From the NCBI RefSeq assembly GCF_002188635.1, contig NZ_NINX01000038.1:62001-126000 (forward strand): a DNA stretch of 64,000 nt. The letters are read 5' to 3'. Positions 11,957 to 27,464 of the stretch are shown here, one piece after another (position 1 is the first letter of the stretch; the number at the start of each line of letters is the position of its first letter). The position numbers were made by a program, and so were the translations under genes. The stretch is from Pigmentiphaga sp. NML030171 (lineage in GTDB: Bacteria; Pseudomonadota; Gammaproteobacteria; Burkholderiales; Burkholderiaceae_B). Below the pieces are notes generated by a model that had not been told where the DNA came from, made no database searches, and saw only the letters and a program-made list of their open reading frames with translations.

Positions 11957-14900
11957 ATGACCATCGCCCGCCACCCCGTCGACGCTTTGCACGGCTTCCA
12001 TCCGGCCGTGGCCGCCTGGTTCCGCCAGGCGTTCGGCTCGGCGACGGAAGCCCAGCGCCGCGCCTGGCCGCATATCCGCGCCGGCCGTTCGACGCTCGTG
12101 GCCGCCCCCACCGGTTCCGGCAAGACGCTGACCGCCTTCCTGGCCGCCATCGACGAGCTGGTGCGAATGGGCGTGGACGCCGGCGGCGCGCTGCCGGACG
12201 CCACCATGGTCGTGTACGTCTCGCCGCTGAAGGCGCTGTCGAACGATATCCGCGTCAACCTGCAGGCGCCGCTCGAAGGCATCGCCGCGGAACTCGACCG
12301 CATGGGCCTGCCCGACCCGGGCATCCGTACCGCCGTGCGCACTGGCGACACCGAGGCGCAGGCCAGGCAGGCGATGCGCAAGCGGCCGCCGCACATCCTG
12401 GTGACGACGCCCGAATCGCTGTATGTGCTGCTGGGTTCGGACGGCGGGCGCCGCATGCTCGCCGACGTGCGCACCGTGATCGTGGACGAAATCCACGCCA
12501 TGGCGGGCAACAAACGGGGCAGCCACCTGGCCCTCACGCTGGAACGGCTTGACGCCCTGTGCGGCAGGCGTCCCGTCCGCATCGGGCTCTCGGCCACGCA
12601 GAAGCCACTGTCGGCCGTGGCACGCTTCCTGGCCGGGCCGGCCCACGCGGACGACTGCGCGATCGTCGACGTCGAACACGTGCGGCGCCGCGACCTGGAC
12701 CTGGAGCTGCCGCCCGTCCCCCTGGAGGCCGTCATGGCCACCGATGTCTGGGACCGCGTGTACGACCGCATGGCCGAACTGGTGGGGCAGCACCGCACCA
12801 CGCTGGTCTTCGTCAACACCCGCCGCATGGCAGAACGCGCTGCCCGCCACCTGGCCGACCGCCTGGGCGAGGAAGCGGTGGCCGCCCACCACGGCAGCCT
12901 GGCCAAGGAACACCGGCTCGACGCCGAACAACGGCTCAAGCGCGGCGAACTGCGCGTGCTGGTCGCCACCGCCTCGCTGGAACTGGGCATAGACATCGGC
13001 GACGTCGACCTGGTCTGCCAGGTCGGCTCGCCGCGCACGATATCCGCCTTCCTGCAACGGGTGGGCCGCTCGGGCCACCACGTGGGCGGCATCCCCAAGG
13101 GACGCCTGTTCCCGACCTCGCGCGACGAGTTGATCGAATGCGCAGCGCTGCTCGACTGTGTGCGGCGCGACGAGCTGGATGCGCTGCACGTGCCCATCGC
13201 GCCGCTGGACGTGCTGGCCCAGCAACTGGTGGCCGAGGTCGCCTGCCAGGAATGGAGCGAGGAAGCCCTGTACGCGCTGGTGCGGCGCGCGGCGCCCTAT
13301 GCGGACCTGGAGCGGCCGGCGTACGACGCGGTGCTGCGCATGCTGGCCGAGGGCTACACCGGCCGCCAGGGCGTGCGCGCGGCCTACATCCACCGCGACG
13401 TGGTGACGGGCGCGCTGCGCGGGCGGCGCGGCAGCAAGCTCACGGCGGTCACCTCGGGCGGTACCATCCCCGACAACGCCGACTACACCGTGCTGCTGGA
13501 ACCGCAAGGGCTGATGGTCGGCACGGTCAACGAGGACTTCGCGGTCGAAAGCCTGGCCGGCGACGTCTTCCAGTTGGGCAACACGTCCTATCGCATCCTG
13601 CGCGTGGAAGCCGGCCGCGTCCGCGTGGAGGACGCGCACGGCGCCGCGCCCAGCATCCCGTTCTGGCTAGGCGAGGCGCCCGGCCGCAGCGACGAACTGT
13701 CGGCCGGCGTCTCGCGCCTGCGCGCCAGGGTCGAAAGCCTGCTGGCGCGCTCCGGCGACACCTCGCCCGACGTCGAGGGCGCCATCCAGGCGCTGATGGA
13801 CGAGATCGGCTTGAACACCTCGGCAGCGCGCCAGATCGTCGAGTACCTGGCGCGCGCGAAAGCGGCGCTGGGCCGGCTGCCCACCCATGACGCGCTGGTC
13901 ATGGAACGTTTCTTCGACGAGTCGGGCGGCATGCAGCTGGTGGTGCACTCCCCCTTCGGCAGCCGGCTCAACCGCGCCTGGGGCCTGGCCCTGCGCAAGC
14001 GCTTCTGCCGCAGCTTCAACTTCGAGTTGCAGGCCGCGGCCACCGAGGACGCCATCGTGCTGTCGCTGTCCACCAGCCACAGCTTCCCGCTGGACGAAGT
14101 CTGGCGCTACCTGCGCTCGAACACCGCCGAGCACCTGCTGGTGCAGGCCTTGCTGGACGCACCGCTGTTCAACGTGCGCTGGCGCTGGAACGCCACCACC
14201 GCGCTGGCGCTGCCGCGCTACGTGGGCGGCCGCAAGGTCGCGCCGCAGTTGCAGCGCATGAAAAGCGACGACCTGCTGGCCGCGGTTTTCCCCGACCAGG
14301 CGGCCTGCCTCGAGAACGTGGTCGGGGAACGCGAGATCCCCGACCACCCACTGGTCGCGCAGACCATCGGCGACTGCCTGCACGAGGCGATGGACGCCGA
14401 AGGCTGGCTCGCGCTGCTGCGGCGGATCGAGAAGCGGGAAATCGAATTGGTGGCGCGTGACCTGCCCACCCCATCGCCGCTGGCCATGGAGATACTCAGC
14501 GCGCGCCCCTACGCTTTCCTGGACGACGCGCCGCTGGAGGAACGCCGTACCCAGGCCGTGCAGGCTCGCCGCTGGACCGATCCGGAATCGGCGGACGACC
14601 TGGGCGCCCTGGATGCCGGCGCCATCGAAGCGGTGGCCGCCGAAGCCTGGCCGCAGGCGCGCGGCACCGATGAAATGCAGGAGGCGCTGGCAAGTCTGGC
14701 CTGCGTGACCGAAGCCGAGGCGGCGGCCAACGACGGCTGGCGGGACTGGCTGGGCGCGCTGGCGGACGAAGGGCGGGCGACACGGCTGCGCCTGGGACCC
14801 GGCGCCGCCCTGTGGGTACCGGTCGAGCGCCTGGCCTGCGTGCGCGCCCTTTACCCCGGAGCTCGCGCCGAACCGGACATCGCCCTGCCCGCCGGCTGCG

Positions 14901-16294
14901 ACGAACCGTGGGAGGCCGACGCCGCCCTGGTCGAAGTCGTGCGCGCGCGGCTGACCGGATTCGGACCGCTCGAGCTGCCGCGCATCGCCGCCGACCTCCG
15001 GCTGCCCGAGACCGTCGTCGCCGCGGCACTCGCCCGGCTCGAGGCCGAGGGCTACGTCATGCGCGGCCGCTTCCACCCGCAGGCACGGCAGGAAGAATGG
15101 TGCGAACGGCACCTGCTGGCCCGTATCCACCGCTACACCATCAAGCGCCTGCGCCGCGAGATCGAGCCGGTCGAACGGCAGGACTTCATGCGCTTCCTGC
15201 TGGCGTGGCAACACGTCGCGCCGGACGCCCGCCTGCAAGGCCCCGGCTCCCTGCCACAGGTCATCGACCAGTTGGAAGGCTACGAAGCCGCTGCCGGAGC
15301 CTGGGAATCGGACATCCTGCCGGCGCGGCTCGACGCCTACTCGCCCGGCTGGCTGGACGGGTTGAGCCAGGCCGGCAAAGTGGTCTGGATGCGCCTGGCG
15401 AGCCAGGGCAAGTCCACGGCCGGACCGGTGCGCGCCACGCCCATGGTACTGCTGCCCCGGCGCCACCTTGGCCCCTGGCAGGCGCTCGTGCCGCCGGACC
15501 AGCAGGCCGAATTGTCGGCACGCGCGCAGCGGGTGCGCGAGGCACTGGCCAGCCACGGCGCGATGTTCTTCGACGAACTGCTGGGCGACACCCGCCTGCT
15601 GCCCAATGAACTGGAAACGGCGCTGGGCGAACTGGTCGCGGCGGGCGCCGCGAACGCCGACAGCTACGCCGGCCTGCGCGCGCTGCTCGTCCCCGCGTCC
15701 CAGCGCACCGCCCACCAGCGTCGGCGTTCGCGCCACGGCACGGCCCCGAACCAGATGGACCAGGCCGGCCGCTGGGCGCTGCTGCGCCGGCCCGCCGCCA
15801 CCGACCCCGCGCCCCCCGGCAAACGTACGCGTACGGATCCGCAGGTCCTGGAACACATCGCCCAGGTCCTCCTGCGCCGCTACGGCGTCGTCTTCTGGCG
15901 CCTGCTGGAACGCGAGGCCCGCTGGCTGCCGCCGTGGCGCGAGCTGCTGCCCGTGCTCCACCGCCTGGAGGCCCGCGGCGACGTGCGGGGCGGCCGCTTC
16001 GTGGCCGGCCTGGCGGGCGAACAGTTCGCGCTGCCCGAGGCCATCCCGCTGCTGCGCGGCATCCGGCGCCGCGAGCCCGGCGGCGAACTGGCCTGCGTCT
16101 GCGCCGCCGATCCGCTGAACCTGGCGGGCGTGCTGCTGCCCGGGGAAAAGATACCCGCGCTGGCCGGCAACCGCGTACTGTATCGCGACGGACTGCCCGT
16201 GGCCGCCGCCGTCGCGGGCGACATCCGCTATCTGGTCGAGGCCGCGCCCGACGAGCGCGAGCGGCTGCGCGCGGCGCTGGTGGCGCGACGCTGA
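11957..16294 (+). CDS. lhr: Large superfamily-2 helicase Lhr
   Basis: A 1445-residue ATP-dependent DNA/RNA helicase. The SF2 core has motif I PTGSGKT (51-57), motif II DEIH (about 177-180), motif III SATQ and, in the second RecA domain, QRVGRSGH (motif VI). This is followed by the winged-helix/Lhr-core domains and the long Lhr C-terminal extension, so it is a full-length Lhr rather than the ~850-residue Lhr-core form. The Asp-Glu-Ile-His box and the SATQ motif are characteristic of Lhr. It is implicated in DNA repair in other bacteria. It stands alone between the Bug gene and the LigJ-like gene. ATG follows no strong Shine-Dalgarno. Confidence 0.96.
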
Positions 16295-16487: not shown

Positions 16488-17510
16488 ATGATCATCGATT
16501 GCCACGGTCACTACACGACCTCGCCTGCCGCCCACAACCAATGGCGCGACCAGCAGAAGGCCAACTTCAAGGCCGGCGGCGACATCGACCCGGCCTATCC
16601 CGATATCTCCGACGACGAGATCCGCGAGACCATCGAGAAGAACCAGCTGCGCCTCCTGCGCGAGCGCGGCGCCGACATGACCATCTTCTCGCCCCGTGCC
16701 TCCGCCATGGAGCCCCACGTCGGCAACGAGAACGTCAGCCAGGTCTGGGCCCGCCGCTCGAACGACCTGATCAAGCGCGTCGTCGACCTGTACCCCGAGA
16801 CCTTCATCGGCGTCTGCCAGCTGCCGCAATCGCCCGGCGTCTCCATCGCCAGTTCCATCGCCGAGCTCGAGCGTTGCGTCACCGAACTGGGCTTCGTCGG
16901 CTGCAACCTCAACCCCGACCCGTCCGGCGGCAGCTTCAGCGCCCCGCCGCTGACCGACCGCTCGTGGTATCCGTTCTTCGAGAAAATGGTCGAGCTGGAC
17001 GTGCCGGCCATGATCCACGTCTCGGGTTCGTGCAACTGCGCGATGCACGCCACCGGCGCCTACTACCTGGCCGCCGATACCATCGCCTTCATGCAGTTCA
17101 TCGAAGGCGACCTGTTCCGCGACTTCCCGACGCTGCGCTTCATCATTCCCCATGGCGGCGGCGCCGTGCCCTACCACTGGGGCCGCTACCGCGGGCTGGC
17201 CGACATGCTCAAGCGCCCGCCGCTGGCCGAGCACGTGATGAAGAACGTCTACTTCGACACCTGCGTCTACCACCAGCCCGGCATCGACCTGCTGTTCGAG
17301 GTCATCGACGTCGACAACATCCTGTTCGGATCGGAAATGGTGGGCGCGGTGCGCGGCATCGACCCCCAGACCGGGCACTATTTCGATGACACCAAGCGCT
17401 ACATCGACGCGCTGGACATCCCGGCGGAAGACAAGCGCAAGGTGTTCGAACTGAACGCGCGCCGGGTCTATCCGCGCCTGGACGCGCAACTGAAGGCACG
17501 GGGACTGTAA
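16488..17510 (+). CDS. ligJ: LigJ-like 4-oxalomesaconate hydratase / amidohydrolase
   Basis: A 340-residue member of the amidohydrolase-fold family. The N-terminal metal motif is HGHY (His6, His8), followed by FSPRAS, LNPDPSGG, MIHVSGSCN, HGGGAVPYHWGR and FDTCVYHQPGIDLL, all of which match 4-oxalomesaconate hydratases (LigJ) of the protocatechuate 4,5-cleavage pathway. It adds water to 4-oxalomesaconate to give 4-carboxy-4-hydroxy-2-oxoadipate. The ATG at 16488 follows CAGGAATT; the frame extends further upstream without homology. No ligAB, ligC, ligI, galB or aldolase gene is nearby, so the true substrate may be a related tricarboxylic ring-cleavage product. A stem-loop follows. Confidence 0.82.
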   Translation: MIIDCHGHYTTSPAAHNQWRDQQKANFKAGGDIDPAYPDISDDEIRETIEKNQLRLLRERGADMTIFSPRASAMEPHVGNENVSQVWARRSNDLIKRVVDLYPETFIGVCQLPQSPGVSIASSIAELERCVTELGFVGCNLNPDPSGGSFSAPPLTDRSWYPFFEKMVELDVPAMIHVSGSCNCAMHATGAYYLAADTIAFMQFIEGDLFRDFPTLRFIIPHGGGAVPYHWGRYRGLADMLKRPPLAEHVMKNVYFDTCVYHQPGIDLLFEVIDVDNILFGSEMVGAVRGIDPQTGHYFDDTKRYIDALDIPAEDKRKVFELNARRVYPRLDAQLKARGL

Positions 17511-17534
17511 ACCGCGGTTTCCCCCTTGCCTGAC

Positions 17535-17571
17535 GGGGCCTGCCGGCGTCATCGACGCGCCGGCAGGCCCC
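17535..17571 (+). terminator. 14-bp GC-rich stem-loop after the LigJ-like gene
   Basis: GGGGCCTGCCGGCG (17535-17548) pairs perfectly with CGCCGGCAGGCCCC (17558-17571) around a 9-base loop, 24 bp after the stop. No T-tract follows, so it may be a Rho-assisted or weak terminator, or a stability hairpin. It separates the LigJ-like gene from the next transcription unit. Confidence 0.6.
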
Positions 17572-17595
17572 ATGTGCATTCCGGCCTCCAAAGGC

Positions 17596-17626
17596 CTCCA
17601 CCGATACTTGTCAGGTATCGGTGGAG
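17596..17626. promoter_or_regulatory. 12-bp inverted repeat upstream of FAH/extradiol operon, likely LysR site
   Basis: CTCCACCGATAC and GTATCGGTGGAG form a perfect 12-bp dyad with a 7-base centre (TTGTCAG). The inner part, CGATA-N9-TATCG, recurs at 22441-22459 next to the LysR gene at 22462, on the other strand with AGGTATCG also conserved. It is 106 bp upstream of the FAH start, a sensible distance for a LysR activator site. Confidence 0.65.
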
Positions 17627-17732
17627 AAAACCCGCCATCTTTTCCCCATCGCTCCCCCGCCTTACGCTTGCATCGGGCACAAGGGCGTGCTCATTCTTCC
17701 CGCACGCCCCATAACAGAGACAGGAATCCCCG

Positions 17733-18569
17733 ATGCGCTACGTCCGCTTCCTCCATGACGGCACCCCCTACCTCGGCACCCGCGAGGGCAACAAGATCCG
17801 GATCCTGGGCGAGGAATCGATCGAATCCCTGCTGGTCGCCGACACCGACCTCGAAACCTACGCCGGCACCCGCGGCGGCGGCAAGCTGGTGGACGAGGCC
17901 GACGTCGCCTACCTGCCCGTCGTCGAGCATCCGGCCAAGATCTTCTGCATCGGCCTGAACTACGCCGACCACACCAAGGAAAGCAAGTACGAGCAGCCCG
18001 CCTATCCCACCATCTTCCCGCGCTACGACACCAGCCTGGTCGGCCATGGCCAACCCATCGTCCGCCCGCGCGTGTCCGACTCCCTGGACTTCGAGGGCGA
18101 ACTGGCGGTGATTCTCAAGCGCGGCGGGCGGCACATCAGGAAGGAAGACGCGCTCGACTGCATTGCCGGCTATGCTCTGTTCAACGACGGCTCGGTGCGC
18201 GAATACCAGTTCCTGTCCCCGCAATGGACGGTGGGCAAGAACTTCGACGCCACCGGCGCCTTCGGTCCGGAACTGGTCACCGCCAGCGAAGTGCCGCCCG
18301 CGGCGCGCGGCCTGCGCCTGGAAACGCGCCTGAACGGCGAAGTGGTCCAGTCGGCCAGCACCGACGACATGATCTTCGACATCCCCACGCTGATCAGCGT
18401 CATCAGCGAGGCGATCACGCTGGAACCCAGCGACGTCATCGTCACCGGCACGCCCGCCGGCATAGGCTGGGCCCGCACGCCCAAGCTGCTGATGCGCGCC
18501 GGCGATGTCTGCGAAATATCGGTGACCGGCTTCGCCACCCTGCGCAACCCGATCGCCGACGAAGCCTGA
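17733..18569 (+). CDS. Fumarylacetoacetate hydrolase (FAH) family enzyme
   Basis: A 278-residue protein with a short N-terminal region and the FAH fold (about 70-278). The metal site is set by FEGELAVIL (acidic residues near 120) and the conserved IFCIGLNYADH, SPQWTVGKNFDATGAFGP and GTPAGIGWAR motifs. Such enzymes cleave C-C bonds of acylpyruvates or act as hydratases/decarboxylases in aromatic catabolism. The next gene, an extradiol dioxygenase, starts 34 bp after its stop, so the likely substrate is the ring-cleavage product of that enzyme. Its own preceding region carries the CGATA-N9-TATCG dyad. Confidence 0.9.
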   Translation: MRYVRFLHDGTPYLGTREGNKIRILGEESIESLLVADTDLETYAGTRGGGKLVDEADVAYLPVVEHPAKIFCIGLNYADHTKESKYEQPAYPTIFPRYDTSLVGHGQPIVRPRVSDSLDFEGELAVILKRGGRHIRKEDALDCIAGYALFNDGSVREYQFLSPQWTVGKNFDATGAFGPELVTASEVPPAARGLRLETRLNGEVVQSASTDDMIFDIPTLISVISEAITLEPSDVIVTGTPAGIGWARTPKLLMRAGDVCEISVTGFATLRNPIADEA

Positions 18570-18603
18570 ACGTCCGGCCACGGCCGCACGACGGAGGAGA
18601 CCC

Positions 18604-19545
18604 ATGAGCATACAGACCCAGCATGGCGCGGGCACCCGGCAAGCCGCGGTGCATTCCATCGACCACTACGCGTTGATGGTTCCGGACCTGCCCCTCGCCC
18701 GCCATTTCCACGAGGCCTTCGGCCTCACGGTCGAGGACGAGGGCCATGGCCTGGCGCTGCGGGCGCGGGACGGACACGTCTCGGCCCGCCTCCACGCGGG
18801 CCCGCGCAAGGCGCTGGCCTACCTCAGCTTCAATTGCTATGCCGGCGACCTGGCGGCCATCCGCGCTCAGCTGGAGCAGGCCGGCGTCGCAACGGCCGCC
18901 GGCGTGCCGCACGCCACCGCCGAGGGCATCTGGTTCCACGACGCGGACGGCAACCTGATCCAGGTCAAGGCCGGCCCCAAGATCACGCCGGACGCCAAGA
19001 GCCCGCTGGACGACATCCACGTGCAAGCCGACGCGCGCGGCGCCCGCTTCCGCAGCCAGGTCGCGCAGGTCCGCCCGCGCCGCCTGTCCCACGTACTGCT
19101 GTTCACGCCCGACGTCTCGCGTGCGCTGGCTTTCTATGAAAAGACGCTGGGCCTGAGGCTGTCCGACCGGTCCGGCGACGGCATCGCCTTCACCCACGCC
19201 CCGCATGGCTGCGACCATCACCTGGTTGCCTTCGCCCGCAGTTCGGCACGCGGCTGGCATCACTCGGCCTGGGACGTGGCCAGCATCGACCAGGTCGGCC
19301 AGGGAGCGGCGCAGATGGCCGCAGCGGGCTACACGCGCGGATGGGGAACGGGCCGGCACGTGCTGGGATCGAACTTCTTCCACTACGTGCGCGACCCGTG
19401 GGGTTCGTACTGCGAATACTCGGCCGACATCGATTACATCTCGGCCGAGCACGGGTGGCCCTCGGGAGATTTCCCGCCCGAGGACAGCCTGTATCAGTGG
19501 GGGCCGGACGTGCCGCCGGACTTCATTCACAACACCGAGGCCTGA
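18604..19545 (+). CDS. Type I extradiol dioxygenase (two-domain VOC family)
   Basis: A 313-residue protein of two vicinal-oxygen-chelate domains. The catalytic C-terminal domain keeps the three iron ligands of catechol 2,3-dioxygenase types: His163 (LSHVLLF), His219/His220 (GWHHSAW) and Glu271 (YCEYSAD). It should open a catecholic ring next to one of the hydroxyls. A strong ribosome site (GGAGGAGA, 6 bp before ATG) and a 34-bp gap link it to the FAH-family gene, which probably processes the product. The substrate ring is not identified by the sequence. Convergent with the flavin hydroxylase, 123 bp apart. Confidence 0.88.
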   Translation: MSIQTQHGAGTRQAAVHSIDHYALMVPDLPLARHFHEAFGLTVEDEGHGLALRARDGHVSARLHAGPRKALAYLSFNCYAGDLAAIRAQLEQAGVATAAGVPHATAEGIWFHDADGNLIQVKAGPKITPDAKSPLDDIHVQADARGARFRSQVAQVRPRRLSHVLLFTPDVSRALAFYEKTLGLRLSDRSGDGIAFTHAPHGCDHHLVAFARSSARGWHHSAWDVASIDQVGQGAAQMAAAGYTRGWGTGRHVLGSNFFHYVRDPWGSYCEYSADIDYISAEHGWPSGDFPPEDSLYQWGPDVPPDFIHNTEA

Positions 19546-19668
19546 TCGAGCATACATGCCGGTCGATGCGACCGGCATGCAGACTCCACCCCACTGCTGG
19601 CCCTGGCCAGCGAAATACGCGAAGCGGTCGAGGACGGTGCGTTCGCGCAATGGTGCCGCCGGCGGCGG

Positions 19669-21357
19669 TCAGCCCATCCGCCCCCGGCCTGTCGCCCGGG
19701 CCAGCGTCGACCGCGCATCGGCCCCCGCCCGCCCCCGCCAGGCGATATGGTGGTCCGGCCGGATCAACACCCGCTCGGCGCCATAAAGCGCCTGCGCGGC
19801 GTCATCGTCGAGCTCCAGCACCTCCAGGCCCAGGCCGTACTCGTCCGCCACCGCGTGCCACGCCTGGCGCTCGCCGGCCGGCAGCGCGCCAAAGGCAAGC
19901 AGCGTGAAGTCGCGCCCGAACAAGTCGAACAGCACCTTGCCGCGCACGACGGCATGCGGCGCGCGCGACCCCGGCAAGGCCAGGGGCACGTAGCGGTTCG
20001 GATCGTCTTGCGGCGCGGGACCTGGCTCGACCGCGACGATGGGACTGTCCAGGTAGCGCACGCCTAATTGCAGGCCGGGAATGTTGAACTCGCTGGCCAC
20101 GTGCGCGGCCAGGCGGCGGCCGAGCTCGGCGCGCGCCCGCACGCCGGCCTCGCTCTCTTCCTCGATGTCGGCGCCGGCGCGCAGGTTGCCGATGCTGTCC
20201 GCCATGCTGCGCGCGAAGGCCGTATTGCGCAGCGCCATGGGCCGGCGTTCGCGCTCGTAGCTGTCCAGCAGCGCGGGCGGGGCCGCGCCCTGGATGACGG
20301 CGGCCAGTTTCCAGCCCAGATTCACCACGTCGTCGATCGAGGTGTTGTAGCCCATGCCTCCGGTGGGCGTGAAAAGATGCGCGGCATCGCCCGCCAGGAA
20401 CACGCGGCCACCGGCCATCCTGTCCGCCACCAGCGTATAGCCGGCCACCCAGGGCAGGCGATCGATGAGTTCGAAGTCGAATTCCCTGCCCACCACGGCA
20501 TGGGCGGTGGCGACCGGATCGATGTCGCCAGGCGCCTGGCCGGGGGCCAGTTGCACGGCAAGGAGGAAGGTCTCGATGCCGTCCACGGCGATCAGCAGCC
20601 CCCGCTGGCGCGCGTTCACGGCCCAATACTGCCAGGCGGGCTGCTTGCCGATCGCGTCGTAGAGCCGCCTGGACCGGAAGTAGATGGACAACATCTGGCC
20701 GCCGAAGAAATCGCGCTGCTCGCTGCCCTGTCCGGAATAGCCCACGCCCAGCGACTTGCGCACCAGGCTGCGGGGACCGTCGCACCCGACGAGGTAGCGC
20801 GCTTGCAGTTGCCACGCCTGACCACCGCCTTCGGGTTCGACCGTGGCCGTGACGCCCTGCTCGTCCTGTTCGACGGCCACCGCGCGCTGCCCCAGGCACA
20901 GCCGCACGCTTGGATACGCGGCCGCGCGCCGGCGCAGCACCGGCTCGATCAGCATCTGCTGCACCCGATGCGGCAGCTCGGGAGTCGGCCACGCATCGCT
21001 GCCGTAGTCGCCGGCATTGTCCGGAGCATGGCCGCCGGCCTCGCTGCGCCGAGCCGCCTCGCCGCGGCTCGGGATCCTGAACCGCGCCAGCTCGTGCTCG
21101 GCCAGCTGCGTGCAATAGACCACGTCCTGCGGATAATCCGGCGGCAGGCCCAGGGCCCGGATCTCGTCGGAGAAACCCCGCCGGCGATAGTGCTCCATGG
21201 TCCGGGCCGAGGTCGCGTTGGCCTTGGGAAAGGCCGGCGGATCGGCATCCTCTTCCAGCAGGACGCAGGGAATGTCCCGGCACCCGAGTTCGATGGCCAG
21301 CATCAGGCCGGCGGGACCGCCGCCGACGATGGCGACTTCTGTCTGCATGGTATTCAC
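19669..21357 (-). CDS. FAD-dependent aromatic hydroxylase
   Basis: About 562 residues from a GTG at 21357, which has AAGGAAG at good spacing; an ATG at 21348 (559 residues) is the alternative. It is a class A flavoprotein monooxygenase (PheA/TfdB/HbpA-like): GGGPAG (about 12-17) for FAD, VGCDGPRSLVRKSLG (the DG motif) and GDAAHLFTPTGGMGYNTSIDDVVNLGWKL. A C-terminal thioredoxin-like tail (about 440-562) is the family's dimer domain. It would hydroxylate a phenolic substrate to the catechol needed by the extradiol dioxygenase. It follows the Bug gene by 13 bp. Confidence 0.88.
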   Translation of the reverse strand: MNTMQTEVAIVGGGPAGLMLAIELGCRDIPCVLLEEDADPPAFPKANATSARTMEHYRRRGFSDEIRALGLPPDYPQDVVYCTQLAEHELARFRIPSRGEAARRSEAGGHAPDNAGDYGSDAWPTPELPHRVQQMLIEPVLRRRAAAYPSVRLCLGQRAVAVEQDEQGVTATVEPEGGGQAWQLQARYLVGCDGPRSLVRKSLGVGYSGQGSEQRDFFGGQMLSIYFRSRRLYDAIGKQPAWQYWAVNARQRGLLIAVDGIETFLLAVQLAPGQAPGDIDPVATAHAVVGREFDFELIDRLPWVAGYTLVADRMAGGRVFLAGDAAHLFTPTGGMGYNTSIDDVVNLGWKLAAVIQGAAPPALLDSYERERRPMALRNTAFARSMADSIGNLRAGADIEEESEAGVRARAELGRRLAAHVASEFNIPGLQLGVRYLDSPIVAVEPGPAPQDDPNRYVPLALPGSRAPHAVVRGKVLFDLFGRDFTLLAFGALPAGERQAWHAVADEYGLGLEVLELDDDAAQALYGAERVLIRPDHHIAWRGRAGADARSTLARATGRGRMG

Positions 21358-21370
21358 GGTAAGGCTTCCT

Positions 21371-22354
21371 TCAGTCCGTCGTCGCCCCCGTGCGCCGCAC
21401 CATCTCGGCATAGCGGGGAGTGTCCTTGCGCATCCACTCGGACACCGTCGCGCCGGGAACGGCGGCGGGCACGAATCCGAACGTGGCCATCCTGGCCTTG
21501 ACCTCGGGCACGTCCAGCGCCGCGCGCACCGCGCGCGAGATCGCCTCGACCCGCTCGGCCGGCGTGCCCGCCGGCGCCACCAGGGCGACCCAGGTGGAGG
21601 CATCCACGCCCCGGGGTCCGCCCGCCTCTTCCAGCGTGGGCACGTCGGGCAGGGCCGACGATCGCTGGCCGTCGGCCACCGCCAGCACGCGCAGCTTGCC
21701 GGCCTGGATCAGCGCGCCGGCAGTGGCGTACGAACCCAGCGCCCAGGTCACTTCTCCGTTGGCCACGGCCGCGTACAGTTGCGCGGTGTCCTTGAACGGC
21801 ACGTGCAGCATCTGCGTGCCCGTGGCCGCCTCGACCTGCGCGGCGCCCAGGTGGCCAGGGCTGCCGACCGCCCACGAACCGTACGTCACCTTGCCCGGCG
21901 AAGATTTGGCCGCGGCGATCAGCTCGGCCACCGACTTGACCGGACTGCCGCTGGAGACCACCACGAAGAACGAGGTCCGGTACAGCCCGCCGACGGGGAC
22001 ATAATCCTTGACCGGGTCGTAGGGCAGCTTGCGGAACAGGCTGGGATTGATCGCCATGTGGCCCACGTCGACGACGCCCAGGTCATAGCCGGTGGCCGCG
22101 GCGCGGCGCACCGCCTCCATCGAGATGAAGCCGTTGCCGCCCGGCCGCGGTTCCACCACGACGGCCTGGCCCCAGTCCTTGGACAACTGCTCGCCCACCA
22201 TGCGGGCTACGGCATCGGGGCCGCTGCCCGCCGGAAACGGGCTCAGCAGCCGCACCGGCCGGGTGGGAAAGGCATCCGGCTGCGCCGCGCCGGCGGCCAT
22301 GGGCTGCAATGCCATGGCGCAGAACAGGGTTGCCGCGAATCTGGCTAGGGTCAT
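21371..22354 (-). CDS. Tripartite tricarboxylate transporter receptor (Bug family)
   Basis: A 327-residue periplasmic binding protein with a signal peptide ending near AGA-AQP (about residue 24). Family motifs include PTRPVRLLSPFPAGSGPDAVAR, EPRPGGNGFI, NPSLFRKLPYDPVKDYVPVGG and GSWAVGSPGHLGAAQVE. It is transcribed just ahead of the aromatic hydroxylase and diverges from a LysR gene, so it may sense or import the aromatic acid of this pathway. No TctA/TctB partner is present in the window. Confidence 0.92.
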   Translation of the reverse strand: MTLARFAATLFCAMALQPMAAGAAQPDAFPTRPVRLLSPFPAGSGPDAVARMVGEQLSKDWGQAVVVEPRPGGNGFISMEAVRRAAATGYDLGVVDVGHMAINPSLFRKLPYDPVKDYVPVGGLYRTSFFVVVSSGSPVKSVAELIAAAKSSPGKVTYGSWAVGSPGHLGAAQVEAATGTQMLHVPFKDTAQLYAAVANGEVTWALGSYATAGALIQAGKLRVLAVADGQRSSALPDVPTLEEAGGPRGVDASTWVALVAPAGTPAERVEAISRAVRAALDVPEVKARMATFGFVPAAVPGATVSEWMRKDTPRYAEMVRRTGATTD

Positions 22355-22399
22355 GGTTTGTCTCCGTAATGGGGTACTTGTTGTCGGAGACGAGTCTAG

Positions 22400-22416
22400 G
22401 TAAGGTCAGTGCTTAC
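22400..22416. promoter_or_regulatory. GTAAG-N7-CTTAC dyad between Bug and LysR genes
   Basis: A short inverted repeat (22400-22404 and 22412-22416) sits in the 107-bp divergent region, about 46 bp before the Bug start. It may be the promoter-proximal part of a two-site LysR regulatory region, together with the dyad at 22441-22459. Confidence 0.35.
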
Positions 22417-22440
22417 AGAAAGATGGCAAAATCCTTCCAT

Positions 22441-22459
22441 CGATACCTAGGCGTTATCG
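22441..22459. promoter_or_regulatory. CGATA-N9-TATCG dyad just before the LysR start: likely autoregulatory site
   Basis: CGATA (22441-22445) and TATCG (22455-22459) repeat the core of the larger dyad at 17596-17626. It ends 2 bp before the LysR ATG, as expected for self-repression, and it also lies in the divergent promoter region of the Bug-hydroxylase operon. Confidence 0.6.
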
Positions 22460-22461
22460 AC

Positions 22462-23355
22462 ATGAAACTGCACCACCTGCGCGACTTCGTCGCCATCGCC
22501 GACGCGCACAGCGTGCGCGGCGCCGCGCGGGCGCTGGGCCTGGCCCAACCCGCGCTGACCCGCAGCCTGCGCGAACTGGAAGGCGAACTGGGCACGCCCC
22601 TGCTGGAGCGGCACGCGCGCGGCGTGGTGCTCACCCCCATCGGCCAGGCCTTCTACGGCCGCGCGCACGCCGCCATGGCGGAACTCCAGCGCGGGCGCGA
22701 AGAAGTGGCGCAGTTGCTGGGCACCCCATCGGGCACGGTCACCGTCGGCCTGTCCAGCGCGGTCTGGCTGGTCATGGCGGCGCGGGCGCACCAGGGGTTC
22801 CGCAAGAAATATCCAGGCGTGCGGCTGCGCATGATGGAAGGCTTCTTCTCCATGCTGGAAGGCCGCCTGCAGGACGGTACCCTGGATTTCTTCATCGGTC
22901 CCCGGCCCGCGCGCCCCATCGGCGACGGCTACAAGGTGGACCTGCTGTTCCACAATGACCGGGTGGTCGTGGGCCGCAAGGGCCATCCCCGGCGCCACGC
23001 CACCAGCCTGGCGGAACTGGTCGACGAGGACTGGGTCCTGACGGGCGTGCGCGAACGCGTGGAGGCCGAATTCGAGGATGCCTTCGCCAGCCAGGGGCTG
23101 CCCCCGCCGGTGCCCATGACCCAGGCCGAATCCATGGTGGGCGTGGCGGCGCTGCTCAGCTCGACCGATGCGCTCGCCATGCTGCCGCGGCAGTGGCTGC
23201 AGGCCCGCCTGTTCGAAGGGGTGATCGAGGCCATCCCGGTGCGCGAGCACATCGAGGGCCCGGACATCGTGCAGATCTCGCGCGCCGGCGTACCCTTGAC
23301 GCCGGCGGCGGCCTATCTGTCCACCTTGTTCGAACGCGCCGCGGTCTCGATGTGA
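22462..23355 (+). CDS. LysR-family regulator of the adjacent aromatic genes
   Basis: A 297-residue LysR protein. The winged HTH (about 1-62, LRDFVAIADAHSVRGAARALGLAQPALTRSLRELEGELGTPLLER) is followed by the two-lobed ligand domain. The ATG at 22462 fits the family N-terminus (MKLHHLRDF); the frame is open further upstream but without family similarity. It diverges from the Bug-hydroxylase pair. The shared CGATA-N9-TATCG dyads here and at 17.6 kb suggest that it also controls the FAH-extradiol operon. The inducer is unknown. Confidence 0.92.
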   Translation: MKLHHLRDFVAIADAHSVRGAARALGLAQPALTRSLRELEGELGTPLLERHARGVVLTPIGQAFYGRAHAAMAELQRGREEVAQLLGTPSGTVTVGLSSAVWLVMAARAHQGFRKKYPGVRLRMMEGFFSMLEGRLQDGTLDFFIGPRPARPIGDGYKVDLLFHNDRVVVGRKGHPRRHATSLAELVDEDWVLTGVRERVEAEFEDAFASQGLPPPVPMTQAESMVGVAALLSSTDALAMLPRQWLQARLFEGVIEAIPVREHIEGPDIVQISRAGVPLTPAAAYLSTLFERAAVSM

Positions 23356-23364
23356 CCGCGGCCC

Positions 23365-24396
23365 TCAGCCCGCCTGCTCGCGCCAGATGTCCAGGCTCTG
23401 CTGCGCCGGCCGGTCCGAGAAACTGAACAGGACGGTATCGGCATCCGCATGCAGGGTGTAGGGCATCCATGACGGGCAGACGAACACGTCGCGCTGGCCA
23501 AAGCGCAGTTCCCGTCCGCCTATGCGGCACGTCCCGCTGCCTTCTCGCACGGCATAGACGGTGGCGTCGGTCGAACGATAGGCCGCGCCGTCGAAACCGG
23601 CCGGCAGGTACTGCAGGAACGTACCCATGGTCGGCATGGGCCACCCGCCGGTGACGGGGTTGACGTATTGCAGCTTGTGGCCCCAGCACGGATGCGGCGC
23701 CTGCGACCGCGCGAAGGCCAGCAAGGCCTCGCGGCTGCGCGCGTACGGGTACCAGCACAGCGGCGAGGTCCGGCTGGCCGGCTCGAAACCCACCGGCTTC
23801 ATCGTCGCGCCGAAGGCCGCCAGGTTGTCCGCGCCATCGCCGCCCTGCCCCGACGGCGCGGCCTCGCCCTTCTCCATGAATTGCGCGTCGAACAGTTCCA
23901 CGATGGGCACGTCCAGCCCGTCCAGCCAGACCATGGGCTCGTCGGAGGGATTGCCGTGGTCGTGGAAGGCCCACGACGGGGTGATGACGAAGTCCCCCTC
24001 CTCCATCGCGATCCGGCGTCCGTCCACCGCCGTATAGGCGCCCTTGCCCTGCAGGACGAAACGCATGGCCGACTGCGAGTGGCGATGCGGCGGCGCCACT
24101 TCGCCGGGCAGGATGAGCTGCAGCCCCGCATACAGGCTGTGCGTGATGCGGGACCGGCCGCGCAGCCCCGGGTTCTCCAGCACCAGGACCCGGCGCTCGG
24201 CCTCTTCGGCGCTGATCAGGTTGCCCGCGTCCCGCAGGTAGGGCCACATGGTTGCCCACGGCCAATGGCAAGGCTGGCAGGGCGTGGACGGCGTGGGCGT
24301 GATCAGGCCGTGCAGCACTTCCCACAGCGGCGTGCAATGGCTGGCGTCGATGCGGCCGTAGAACGCCTCGCGCCGCGCGCGCATGTCGTCCGTCAT
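23365..24396 (-). CDS. Gentisate 1,2-dioxygenase-like bicupin
   Basis: A 343-residue bicupin enzyme that would cleave gentisate (2,5-dihydroxybenzoate) to maleylpyruvate with an Fe(II) centre. The first cupin carries PPHRHSQSAMRFVLQG (His104, His106) and FHDHG (His145/His147), the pattern of gentisate dioxygenases. A second cupin (about 265-335) is less conserved. The start at 24396 has GGAGAT at good spacing and overlaps the hydroxylase stop by 4 bp (ATGA). It is the last gene of the gentisate operon. 1-Hydroxy-2-naphthoate or salicylate dioxygenase, close relatives, cannot be excluded. Confidence 0.87.
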   Translation of the reverse strand: MTDDMRARREAFYGRIDASHCTPLWEVLHGLITPTPSTPCQPCHWPWATMWPYLRDAGNLISAEEAERRVLVLENPGLRGRSRITHSLYAGLQLILPGEVAPPHRHSQSAMRFVLQGKGAYTAVDGRRIAMEEGDFVITPSWAFHDHGNPSDEPMVWLDGLDVPIVELFDAQFMEKGEAAPSGQGGDGADNLAAFGATMKPVGFEPASRTSPLCWYPYARSREALLAFARSQAPHPCWGHKLQYVNPVTGGWPMPTMGTFLQYLPAGFDGAAYRSTDATVYAVREGSGTCRIGGRELRFGQRDVFVCPSWMPYTLHADADTVLFSFSDRPAQQSLDIWREQAG

Positions 24397-25583
24397 CGCG
24401 GAATCTCCTTCGGGTCGTACATCCAGGCCATGCTTTCCATGGTCTGCTCCGCCGTCCTGGCGCCCAGGAACGCGTTGCGCAAGTCGCGCGTGGCGCCCGC
24501 GGCGTGGTAGGCATGCCCATAGAGCCGCGCCGTCAGCTGCGTGCGGGCGGTGCGCAGGTAGCGCGCCTGCTGGTAGTCCAGGAACGCGGCGGCCATGTCG
24601 CCCCGATGGGCCTGCACCTTGCCGGCCAGGCACACGGCATCTTCCATCGCCATGCAGGCGCCCTGCGCCAGGTATTGCAGCATCGGATGCGCGGCATCGC
24701 CCAGCAGCGTGACCCGCCCTTTGCTCCAGTTGGCCACGGGTTCGCGGTCGCACAGCACCCACATGCGCCAGGACTCGATCTTCTCGAGCATGCCCAGGAC
24801 CAGGGGATGCGCGCCCTGGAAGCGCAGGTGCAGTTCCTCCGGGTCGCCGTAGGTATCCCAGCCGTCCTCGTAGCGATCGCTGTGGAACACGGCCACCAGG
24901 TTGAACAGCTCGTTGCCGCGCAGGGGGTAGTGGACCAGGTGATACTTGGGCCCCATCCAGACCACCATCGCGTTCAGCCGATTGCTGTCGGGCACTTCGT
25001 CGGCGCGCAGCACCGCGCGGTAGGCGATATGGCCCGAGACGCGGGGCTTGCCGTCGCCCACGATGCCCGCGCGGATGGTGGACCAGAGCCCGTCGGCGCC
25101 GATCAGGGCCGCGCCAGTGAACGTCTCCTCACGCTGGGTACGGACCACGACGCCGTCCGGCGTGTCTTTGTAGTCCTGCACCTTGGTGGCGGCATGCAGC
25201 GTGACGCGCCCGCTTTCGCGGCAGGCTTCCAGCAGGACCGCATGCAAATCCGCGCGGTGGATCAGTCCGTAGGGCCGGCCGAAGCGTTGCGGGAACAGGC
25301 GGGCGACGGGCAGTTGGACCAACCGTTCGCCGGACAGCGCGTCCATCGCGACGATGTCGTCGGGAAACGAGGCCAGCCGGTTCACCTTGTCGGTGATGCC
25401 CAGCGCATCGAAAGTATGGAAGGCGTTGGGGCCCAGCTGGATGCCGGCGCCGATTTCCTTGAAGGTCTCGGCCTGCTCGAACACCGTCGCCGGGCGCCCG
25501 GTGCGCGCCAGCGCCAGCGCCGCTGCCAGACCGCCTATGCCGCCCCCCGCCACCAGGACCCTGGATGTATCGTCCGCGCTCAT
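24393..25583 (-). CDS. 3-Hydroxybenzoate 6-hydroxylase-like FAD monooxygenase
   Basis: A 396-residue class A flavin monooxygenase: GGGIGG (13-18) for FAD, GADGLWSTIRAGI (DG motif), GDAAHPMLQYLAQGACMAMEDAVCLA for FAD/NAD(P)H. Length and motifs match 3-hydroxybenzoate 6-hydroxylase / salicylate hydroxylase relatives. Between a maleyl- or fumarylpyruvate hydrolase gene and a gentisate dioxygenase gene, the likely reaction is 3-hydroxybenzoate to gentisate. Salicylate 5-hydroxylation is normally a Rieske reaction, so is less likely. It overlaps both neighbours by 4 bp. Confidence 0.88.
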   Translation of the reverse strand: MSADDTSRVLVAGGGIGGLAAALALARTGRPATVFEQAETFKEIGAGIQLGPNAFHTFDALGITDKVNRLASFPDDIVAMDALSGERLVQLPVARLFPQRFGRPYGLIHRADLHAVLLEACRESGRVTLHAATKVQDYKDTPDGVVVRTQREETFTGAALIGADGLWSTIRAGIVGDGKPRVSGHIAYRAVLRADEVPDSNRLNAMVVWMGPKYHLVHYPLRGNELFNLVAVFHSDRYEDGWDTYGDPEELHLRFQGAHPLVLGMLEKIESWRMWVLCDREPVANWSKGRVTLLGDAAHPMLQYLAQGACMAMEDAVCLAGKVQAHRGDMAAAFLDYQQARYLRTARTQLTARLYGHAYHAAGATRDLRNAFLGARTAEQTMESMAWMYDPKEIPR

Positions 25584-26455
25584 GCCGGGTCTCCCGCCTG
25601 CGCCTGGCGCACGGCCACCGTCATCCGGCCCACGCCGGCCACCTCGACGTCGATGACGTCGCCCGCCTCGACCGGCCCGACGCCTTCCGGCGTCCCCGTG
25701 AACAGCAGGTCGCCGGGATGCAGCGTGTAGAACGACGAGGCCAGCTCGATCAGCTCGGGTATCCCCAGCACGAGGTCCCGGGTATTGGCCCGCTGGCGCG
25801 GCTGGCCGTTCACGGTCAGCCAGAAATCCAGGTTGGCCGGATCCGGTACTTCGTCGGGCGTCGCCATCCATGGTCCCAGGACCGAATAGGTATCGATGGA
25901 CTTGCGCAGGCTGCGCTCCTCCGGCCCGCGGGTGGTCATGTCCAGCCCCACGCAATAGCCGGCGATGTACTCGTACGCCCGCGCGGCGGGAATGTCGCGG
26001 CCGCGCCGGCCGATCACGACCACCACCTCGGCCTCGTGGTCGTTGCGGCGATCCGGATGCTTCAGGGCGACCCCCGCGGCCGGACCGACCAGGGAACTGG
26101 TGGCCTTCAGGAACAGGCCCACGCGCTGGATTTCGCCGACCTGGTTGCGATGATGGATTTGCGCATCGCTCCGGGCTTCGTCCAGGTGCTTCAGGTAGTT
26201 GACCGGCGCCGCGATGATCTTGCCCGGGCTGGCCACCGGGCTCAGCAGGGAAACGTCCTTCAAATGCAGGCTGGGCGCCCCCGGCAACAGGTCGCGGATG
26301 CAGCGCCGGACCACGTCCAGGTTGGCGATCAGCGGGTCGAAGGGCGGCAGCGGATAGGTATGGGCGGGCAGGACGGCAAGAGCGGGCGTGACGTCGCGGA
26401 CCCGGTCCCCTTCCACCAGCCCCAGCCGGTCCGCGTCGAAGCGGCAAAGCAGCAT
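25580..26455 (-). CDS. FAH-family hydrolase, probable maleylpyruvate/fumarylpyruvate hydrolase
   Basis: A 291-residue FAH-fold enzyme with KIIAAPVNYLKH, HEAEVVVVIGRRGR (metal ligands near 140), GLDMTTRGPEERSLRKS and FTGTPEGVGPV. The first gene of the gentisate operon. In the gentisate pathway such enzymes split fumarylpyruvate, or maleylpyruvate directly, to pyruvate and fumarate or maleate. No maleylpyruvate isomerase gene is seen in this operon, so direct maleylpyruvate hydrolysis or an isomerase elsewhere must be assumed. Divergent from the LysR gene at 26571. Confidence 0.88.
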   Translation of the reverse strand: MLLCRFDADRLGLVEGDRVRDVTPALAVLPAHTYPLPPFDPLIANLDVVRRCIRDLLPGAPSLHLKDVSLLSPVASPGKIIAAPVNYLKHLDEARSDAQIHHRNQVGEIQRVGLFLKATSSLVGPAAGVALKHPDRRNDHEAEVVVVIGRRGRDIPAARAYEYIAGYCVGLDMTTRGPEERSLRKSIDTYSVLGPWMATPDEVPDPANLDFWLTVNGQPRQRANTRDLVLGIPELIELASSFYTLHPGDLLFTGTPEGVGPVEAGDVIDVEVAGVGRMTVAVRQAQAGDPA

Positions 26456-26570: not shown

Positions 26571-27464
26571 ATGAGCAAACTCGACCTGACGGACCTGCGC
26601 CTTTTGCAATCCCTGGGCCAGACCGGCACCGTATCGGCCACGGCCGACGAACTGGGCCTGAGCCAGCCGTCGGTCAGCATCCGGCTGGGCAAGCTGCGCC
26701 GGCACTTCAAGGACCCGCTGTTCGTGCGCACGTCCGCCGGCATGGTGCCCACGCCCCGCGCCGCCTCGCTCACCTCCGCGGTGCAGGGCGCGCTCGCCCT
26801 GTTCGACGGTACGGAAGGCCGGGACCCGGACTTCGATCCCGCCACGTCCGACCGGGTGTTCCGCATCTGCATGACCAACACCGGCCAGATGGTCGTCCTG
26901 GCCCGTCTGCTGAACCGCCTGGCCGAGATCGCCCCCCACGTACGCCTGGAGATACGAGACCTGGATCCGGACACGCCGCGCCGCCTGGAAACCGGGGATG
27001 CCGACCTGGCCATGGGCTACACGACCAGCATGCAGGCGGGTTTCCACCAGCAGACGCTGTTCAGCGAACACTATGTCTGCCTGGTCCGTGCCGGCCATCC
27101 GCGCGTCAAGGCGAAACTGACGAAATCCCAGTTCCTGTCGGAGTCCCACGTGGCCGTGATGACCACCGGCACGGCCCACTGGCTGCTGGACAAGGCGATC
27201 GACGACGCCGGCATCGTCCGCAAGACGGCCTTGTGGGTACCGTCCTTCCTGGGCCTGGAGGAAATCGTCGCCAGGACCGACCTGCTCGCGCTGGCCCCCA
27301 TTCACCTGGCTCGCATCCTGGCCGCCCACGGCACGATCCGCTACCTGGCGGTGCCGTTCGATCTGCCGTCCTACCTGGTGCGCCAGTACTGGCACGAGCG
27401 CTATCACCGCGATCCAGGCTGCAAATGGCTGCGGGCGGTCGCGGCCAGCGTGTTCCAGGAGTAG
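26571..27464 (+). CDS. LysR-family regulator (NodD/NahR-like) of gentisate operon
   Basis: A 297-residue LysR protein with N-terminal HTH (LDLTDLRLLQSLGQTGTVSATADELGLSQPSVSIRLGKLRRHFKDPLFVRT) of the NahR/DntR/NodD subgroup and a co-inducer domain (about 90-297). It diverges from the gentisate operon across a 115-bp gap, the usual place for its activator. An aromatic carboxylate such as 3-hydroxybenzoate or gentisate is the likely inducer; this is inferred from context. Confidence 0.92.
   Translation: MSKLDLTDLRLLQSLGQTGTVSATADELGLSQPSVSIRLGKLRRHFKDPLFVRTSAGMVPTPRAASLTSAVQGALALFDGTEGRDPDFDPATSDRVFRICMTNTGQMVVLARLLNRLAEIAPHVRLEIRDLDPDTPRRLETGDADLAMGYTTSMQAGFHQQTLFSEHYVCLVRAGHPRVKAKLTKSQFLSESHVAVMTTGTAHWLLDKAIDDAGIVRKTALWVPSFLGLEEIVARTDLLALAPIHLARILAAHGTIRYLAVPFDLPSYLVRQYWHERYHRDPGCKWLRAVAASVFQE

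Follow-up and report, generated by a model that had tools for sequence, protein, structure and literature searches.

The hcdABC genes of Pseudomonas mandelii 7HK4 belong to the 7-hydroxycoumarin/3-(2,4-dihydroxyphenyl)propionate pathway, which degrades a resorcinol ring (PMC6222606). As far as the available part of that report describes, HcdA converts 3-(2,4-dihydroxyphenyl)propionate into the 2,3,5-trihydroxyphenyl acid and HcdB opens the ring, and in cells also holding HcdC the derivative of the cleavage product was undetected (PMC6222606). A second report, available in excerpt, states that 7-hydroxycoumarin induces hcdABC and hcdR approximately 1000-fold (PMC7913881). In the present study, we analyzed 64,000 nucleotides (nt) of contig C2, here called the window, from the 5.86-megabase (Mb) genome of Pigmentiphaga sp. 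NML030171 (G000), with a focus on the gene set at 16488-23355. A first-pass annotation had described these six genes as an undescribed extradiol aromatic pathway joined by one LysR regulator. All three hcd-type enzyme families were found in the set, namely a class A flavin hydroxylase, a type I extradiol dioxygenase with its iron ligands, and an FAH-family hydrolase. We consider it probable that these three enzymes, the LysR regulator and a Bug protein, without the adjoining LigJ-type gene, form an hcd-like pathway for a resorcinol-type aromatic compound.

The features of the locus are as follows (window coordinates, strand, description):
16488..17510, plus strand, LigJ-type 4-oxalomesaconate hydratase (PF04909), judged most likely to lie outside the unit
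17535..17571, plus strand, perfect 14-base-pair hairpin in the gap between LigJ and the FAH operator (arms 17535-17548 and 17558-17571)
17601..17641, plus strand, putative operator 1 (dyad and GCCATCTT)
17733..18569, plus strand, FAH-family hydrolase (PF01557, 3e-64)
18604..19545, plus strand, type I (VOC) extradiol dioxygenase (PF00903)
19548..19586, no strand assigned, hairpin between the convergent dioxygenase and hydroxylase genes (18-nt arms, 83% complementary)
19669..21348, minus strand, class A flavin-dependent aromatic hydroxylase, RebC-like (PF01494 and PF21274)
21371..22354, minus strand, Bug/TctC periplasmic solute-binding protein (PF03401, 1.4e-59)
22420..22460, minus strand, putative operator 2 in the gap between Bug and LysR (dyad and GCCATCTT)
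22462..23355, plus strand, LysR-type regulator (PF00126 and PF03466)

Open reading frames and Pfam matches identified the gene families by computation and confirmed that all six genes were complete and lay where they had been placed. The genes formed two blocks, with the FAH and dioxygenase genes at 17733-19545 (plus) and the Bug and hydroxylase genes at 22354-19669 (minus); 22 nt separate the Bug gene from the hydroxylase gene. Between the convergent blocks, the segment 19540-19600 folds at -23.4 kcal/mol, which was equaled in 5 of 200 shuffles, and this hairpin is a possible two-way boundary of the two transcripts. Pfam revealed no dehydrogenase, decarboxylase or aldolase gene among the six, as had been noted, and the gene order indeed differed from that of classical meta-cleavage operons. 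Neither an alpha/beta C-C hydrolase nor the dehydrogenase, hydratase and aldolase of mhp/xyl-type operons was found among them. The missing dehydrogenase, decarboxylase and aldolase would be accounted for by a triad of the hcdABC type. The neighboring window genes gave no clear lead to the substrate.

The two blocks share a putative operator. Operator 1 consists of the dyad CCGATAC-N7-GTATCGG at 17601-17621, followed by GCCATCTT at 17634-17641, and lies approximately 120 nt 5' of the FAH start codon. Operator 2 consists of the dyad TCGATAA-N7-GTATCGA at 22440-22460, followed by GCCATCTT at the same spacing, and ends one base short of the LysR start codon. A T-N11-A motif within a dyad is a mark of LysR-type sites, and this promoter feature, a dyad with T-N11-A near a divergent promoter, was present in both copies. 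The dyad YCGATA-N9-TATCGR, searched with at most one mismatch, occurred at two places in the window, both exact, and only 1 of 100 shuffles reached two. The bipartite pattern GTATCGNTGG-N9-GCCATCTT gave two exact window matches and one at 3 mismatches, while the maximum among 100 shuffles was 1 (at most 3 mismatches). The whole genome contained exactly two exact matches, and the closest other match differed at 2 positions. With as many as 3 mismatches allowed, 19 genomic matches were counted versus 13 for the reversed control pattern; therefore, only exact and near-exact matches are meaningful. A control pattern with a spacer one base longer had no exact match in 11 genomes or the window, and 24 matches at 1-2 mismatches were present among those listed for the 11 genomes.

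The comparison with relatives covered 11 genomes of the genus (G-numbers) and a series of loci (L-numbers) that includes 80 dioxygenase loci, the best of 100 confirmed relatives. From equal coordinates, L009-L013 and L064 were taken as the same records as G003, G006, G009, G007, G010 and G002, respectively. In total, 17 operator sites from 11 genomes were aligned, each with 0-3 mismatches, yielding the consensus.cgATA.C...caGgtATCG.tgGg...A....GCCATCTtt... Eight of these sites precede FAH (window, L009-L014 and L152; L014 is a Cupriavidus locus), and nine adjoin LysR (window, L011, L012, L013, L152, L193, L191, L192 and L190). The L190 site adjoins a hydroxylase paralogue (39%), outside this unit. 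In G003, the FAH-dioxygenase and hydroxylase halves are 33 kilobases (kb) apart, yet the sites are kept (2 and 0 mismatches). The operator status of G009 and G010 was judged from their loci instead of a whole-genome scan, and the upstream stretch searched for L149 begins one codon early.

It is scarcely credible that the common sequence is an RNA hairpin or a chance repeat, with the genes controlled separately. The dyad at 17596-17626 could fold into a near-perfect hairpin (z -5.2), and a terminator scan flagged 17620-17636 with a T-rich tail. However, the same pattern at the same spacing also precedes the opposite transcript, the dyad arms of L012 and L014 no longer fully match while T-N11-A is kept, and the site adjoins related LysR genes in L190-L192. 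By computation, the putative operator at the FAH and Bug promoters is a site shared by the three enzyme genes. Because of this shared site and a co-directional gene run in two relatives, the reading that hydroxylase, dioxygenase, FAH, Bug and LysR are one unit under one regulator is supported. The LysR protein would be the activator of both transcripts and the controller of its own expression. The earlier claim of a single LysR for all genes thus probably holds for the hydroxylase, dioxygenase, FAH and Bug genes and is unsupported for LigJ, in view of its synteny and lack of a site. Two more LysR relatives (46-47%) were observed in G002, at L190 8555-11273 and L194 6829-7770, with adjacent sites (1 and 2 mismatches), and one of them adjoins a hydroxylase paralogue (39%). 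Members of this LysR subfamily may share the operator type.

The comparison of gene neighborhoods gave computed evidence of conservation as a unit. In G004 and G005 (L191 and L192), LysR (60%) is divergent from a one-directional Bug-hydroxylase-dioxygenase-FAH run, with a site in the gap (2 and 3 mismatches). The proteins there are 59-60% (Bug), 64-65% (hydroxylase), 51-52% (dioxygenase) and 35-36% (FAH) identical to those of the window. In L074, a Comamonadaceae contig, LysR (41%) is divergent from hydroxylase (36%), dioxygenase (52%), FAH (49%) and Bug (54%). The comparison in relatives that had been suggested thus recovered the unit, one-directional with a divergent LysR, in L191, L192 and L074, and did not recover LigJ in any of them. 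Of the 80 loci, 70 had an FAH gene (at least 40%) no more than 3.5 kb from the dioxygenase and on its strand, 56 had a related flavin hydroxylase (at least 24%) within 6 kb, and 16 had a hydroxylase of this subgroup (at least 34%) within 10 kb. LysR (at least 38%) was found within 10 kb in 7 loci and Bug (at least 45%) in 3; thus, the regulator and Bug are tied to the unit among close relatives only. Since several contigs are short and end nearby, some missing neighbors may be artefacts. The genes of relatives were called by a simple, error-prone codon-bias script, which produced overlong genes and wrong strands (for example, L148 2885-6206) and missed the dioxygenases of L191, L192 and L074; their positions and identities were rechecked by tblastn.

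The first-pass annotation had joined LigJ to the pathway, and the LigJ-like protein does belong to its family, matching solved 4-oxalomesaconate hydratases over residues 1-340 with 617.9 bits. We consider it highly improbable that LigJ is a working member, hydrating the product of a carboxylated ring. In 6 of the 8 genus genomes (8 of 11) with a LigJ copy of at least 91% identity, LigJ and the dioxygenase share a strand and are 1.0-1.7 kb apart, with FAH-dioxygenase next after LigJ. In G010, the genes that follow it instead include another aromatic-type set with two FAH proteins (44%) and a Bug (38%). However, the same large helicase gene precedes LigJ in 8 of 8 genomes, and LigJ stays with it in G002 and G010, where other genes come next and the dioxygenase is on another contig. 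The helicase gene occupies 11957-16294 of the window, is 77-95% identical in the seven other genomes, and has two ATP-dependent helicases as its best NCBIfam models, both below cut-off; we take it to be Lhr by name. The G002 LigJ is 95% identical, compared with 65% for the best G002 dioxygenase. LigJ (at least 55%) lay within 10 kb of the dioxygenase in 4 of 80 loci (L009-L012, all of the Pigmentiphaga group), and tblastn did not find it in the co-directional units of G004, G005 and L074. Upstream of LigJ, the best operator match had 5-7 mismatches, and a hairpin separates it from FAH. This hairpin has no U-run; the segment 17525-17590 folds at -39.1 kcal/mol (z -4.2), and it is a possible end of the LigJ transcript.

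The absence of ligAB reported earlier applies to the cluster and the window and not to the rest of the genome, which holds 16 LigB-family (PF02900) and 6 LigA-family matches, none of them in the window. These numbers look like many ring-opening dioxygenases in one genome. LigA-LigB pairs are located at C12:72406-73621 and C55:3276-4362. Both beta subunits score above cut-off with two class III extradiol subfamily models, and the one on C12 does so with the gallate dioxygenase model as well. Of the alpha parts, the C12 subunit passes a protocatechuate 4,5-dioxygenase model and the C55 fragment passes none. LigK-type genes above cut-off were found on C10 and on C18, the latter approximately 1.3 kb from a second LigJ (65%). 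These pairs and LigK-type genes likewise speak against LigJ membership. Because of the helicase synteny, the dioxygenase located elsewhere in two genomes, the missing site, and the ligAB pairs elsewhere, the LigJ gene at 16488-17510 is most likely a mere neighbor outside the unit. Therefore, the earlier puzzle of a LigJ step without ligAB dissolves; most simply, the window LigJ may be a scattered member of a protocatechuate 4,5-cleavage pathway. The false puzzle is replaced by a testable unit with a defined putative operator and five genes.

The claim that the dioxygenase keeps all iron ligands was verified. The residues H163, H219, H220 and E271, as well as H205/H206 and Y261, were identical in 88 of 88 aligned rows, in which a few genomes were entered twice; the histidine serving as iron ligand is presumably the one given by homoprotocatechuate dioxygenase numbering. 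The predicted dioxygenase structure (predicted local distance difference test, pLDDT, 91.5) matched solved type I extradiol dioxygenases. The best PDB match was 3b59, a Novosphingobium glyoxalase-type protein, followed by catechol, trihydroxybiphenyl, biphenyl and homoprotocatechuate dioxygenases, with 16-24% identity among the 50 matches listed. A dioxygenase of Pigmentiphaga kullae is 93% identical to that of the window. In the FAH protein, H80, E83, E121, E123 and K169 were invariant in 71 of 71 rows, and position 152 was D in 59 and E in 12. The family and its conserved residues suggest a 2,4-dioxo-acid (acylpyruvate-type) C-C hydrolase. The hydroxylase belongs to the NF004780/PRK06126 subfamily (625.2 bits, cut-off 445). 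Its closest solved sequence is RebC (30% identity), and the ten best Foldseek matches of its model (pLDDT 83.9) were all RebC, with template modeling (TM) scores of 0.80-0.86. Many other cassette copies are accompanied by flavin hydroxylases of a different kind (24-30% identity), which fits a common lower pathway with exchangeable entry enzymes. The Bug protein is probably an uptake or sensing part.

FAH enzymes act on 2-oxo acids that carry a second oxo group nearby, either splitting or rearranging them, and extradiol cleavage gives a 2,4-dioxo acid if a third ring oxygen is para to one of the vicinal hydroxyls. From these properties and the gene set, we infer the following order of steps. 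Given an aromatic inducer, LysR bound to the two copies of the bipartite site would switch on Bug-hydroxylase and FAH-dioxygenase; as its site adjoins its own start codon, LysR may also limit its own expression. The Bug protein would assist in capturing or sensing the compound. The hydroxylase would add a hydroxyl group beside an existing one on a ring with two meta-placed oxygens, giving a 1,2,4-trioxygenated ring that the dioxygenase would open in the extradiol manner. Because the ring carries a third oxygen, the cleavage product would be a 2,4-dioxo acid, in which FAH would hydrolyze a C-C bond, releasing a pyruvate-type part together with a second acid. With direct hydrolysis of this acid, a dehydrogenase, decarboxylase, hydratase and aldolase would be unneeded.

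Several observations weigh against this pathway. The likeness to hcd is one of enzyme families; the available part of the report leaves the products formed by HcdC unidentified and describes HcdB as inactive on plain 1,2,4-benzenetriol (PMC6222606). The FAH protein and the dioxygenase fall far short of the NCBIfam cut-offs for the named functions that they match, and the structure 3b59 has no assigned reaction. No FAH gene was near the dioxygenase in 10 of 80 loci, and the two halves are separated by 33 kb in G003 and by 5-9 kb in G006, G008 and G009. In L013, no Bug gene was found between hydroxylase and LysR. The L191/L192 FAH proteins, at 35-36% to the window FAH, are equally close (36-38%) to the FAH of the gentisate set that adjoins the window unit.

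Two other substrate classes were weighed. The unit might degrade a catechol-yielding phenol, such as a hydroxyphenyl acid, with FAH acting as an isomerase, decarboxylase or hydratase instead of an acylpyruvate-type hydrolase, which we regard as unlikely. The best named NCBIfam models are HpaG for FAH (tied with dioxo-rhamnonate hydrolase) and HpaD for the dioxygenase, and the available part of the hcd report states that HcdB also cleaves several plain catechols (PMC6222606). However, both scores are far under cut-off (165.6 versus 276.4 bits for HpaG; 75.9 versus 321.4 bits for HpaD), and the six genes include no semialdehyde dehydrogenase, alpha/beta C-C hydrolase or aldolase. A hydroxypyridine or another N-heterocycle as the ring, degraded in a kpi-like manner with FAH for the last step, is very unlikely. 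PieE, which reportedly acts on the piericidin pyridine ring, is among the closest structures of the window hydroxylase. In the part of the report available, the kpi cluster of Arthrobacter sp. IN13 encodes a flavin monooxygenase, a dioxygenase that opens the ring, and an FAH protein as the proposed catalyst of the final step; however, its dioxygenase is of the amidohydrolase family, not VOC, and it also uses the alpha/beta hydrolase KpiB, whereas the window unit has no alpha/beta hydrolase (PMC7356986). The resorcinol-type pathway thus remains our preferred reading. As a tentative extension, the RebC-like group (NF004780) might catalyze entry into a so far undescribed catabolic route in Burkholderiales and Alphaproteobacteria, directed at a larger phenolic natural product such as a resorcinol derived from a coumarin, flavonoid or polyketide; the nearest solved relatives of the hydroxylase act mostly on multi-ring metabolites.

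In Burkholderiales and Pseudomonas, the FAH-dioxygenase pair is repeatedly found next to flavin hydroxylases that differ from one another, which suggests that the pair is a general cassette for 1,2,4-trioxygenated rings, with the entry enzyme setting the substrate. One known substrate of the RebC-like version would assign a function to family NF004780, now named 'hypothetical protein'. Other arrangements were observed around these genes. Just past the interval lies a 3-hydroxybenzoate/gentisate gene set (23365-26455, minus) with its own LysR (26571-27464, plus), comprising a gentisate 1,2-dioxygenase (486.7 bits, cut-off 442.1), a 3-hydroxybenzoate 6-monooxygenase (544.5 bits, cut-off 459) and an FAH hydrolase. 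In L012, L152 and L193, this set is still adjacent to the LysR-Bug-hydroxylase half, and a similar one occurs near the FAH-dioxygenase pair of Herbaspirillum lusitanum (L044). In G003, G006, G008 and G009, the approximately 5-33 kb between the halves (L152 and L193-L196) hold several Bug genes, and the operators are still recognizable. The window genome also carries a second cassette, L148 (G000:C34:40000-54000), with LysR, a flavin hydroxylase, a dioxygenase (53%), FAH (49%), and homologues of the L019 Amidohydro_1 (81%) and Abhydrolase_3 (68%) proteins; L019, L021 and L044 are listed as related loci. As far as the source is available, L148 recalls the kpi hydroxypyridine cluster, in which an amidohydrolase opens the ring, and the VOC dioxygenase is an addition in L148 (PMC7356986).

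The window unit was finally compared with known systems. RebC is biosynthetic and acts on an indolocarbazole in rebeccamycin synthesis, whereas the window hydroxylase adjoins a ring-cleavage enzyme. The protocatechuate 4,5-cleavage pathway (LigAB, LigJ and LigK) is represented by the family of the adjoining LigJ, but the unit contains no LigAB or LigK, and the ligAB-type and ligK-type genes found sit on other contigs. The homoprotocatechuate (hpa) pathway supplies the best named models, HpaD and HpaG, both well under cut-off, and no other hpa-type gene occurs among the six. The flavonoid A-ring pathways fde (Herbaspirillum seropedicae) and ifc (Variovorax) also combine a flavin hydroxylase with a glyoxalase-type dioxygenase; unlike the window unit, ifc has an alpha/beta hydrolase and cupins, and fde has the Rieske partner FdeD (PMC11069340, PMC8552027). 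Both were rejected as direct homologues because the available parts of these reports mention no FAH protein (PMC11069340, PMC8552027). Orcinol was dropped as the named substrate, as literature searches turned up no gene-level orcinol pathway carrying the triad, and was kept as a resorcinol-type example; the DntD/DntG precedent (2,4-dinitrotoluene) was not used as evidence. On the accessible portions of their descriptions, we set aside the isopropylphenol ipp cluster, which includes an FAH-like gene, its role untested, but relies on a two-component monooxygenase and a hydroquinone dioxygenase, and the riboflavin lum cluster, which uses P450, Rieske and aldolase steps. The available part of the hcd literature describes three genes on one strand, whereas the window unit has two transcripts and a Bug gene, and its hydroxylase belongs to the RebC-like PRK06126 group. 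In the accessible parts of open-licence PubMed Central literature, we found no description of the LysR/Bug/RebC-like version or its substrate. The word 'undescribed' thus applies to this version and not to its core: the enzyme triad as such is already known from hcdABC, and its combination with LysR, a Bug protein and a hydroxylase of the RebC-like kind appears to be new.

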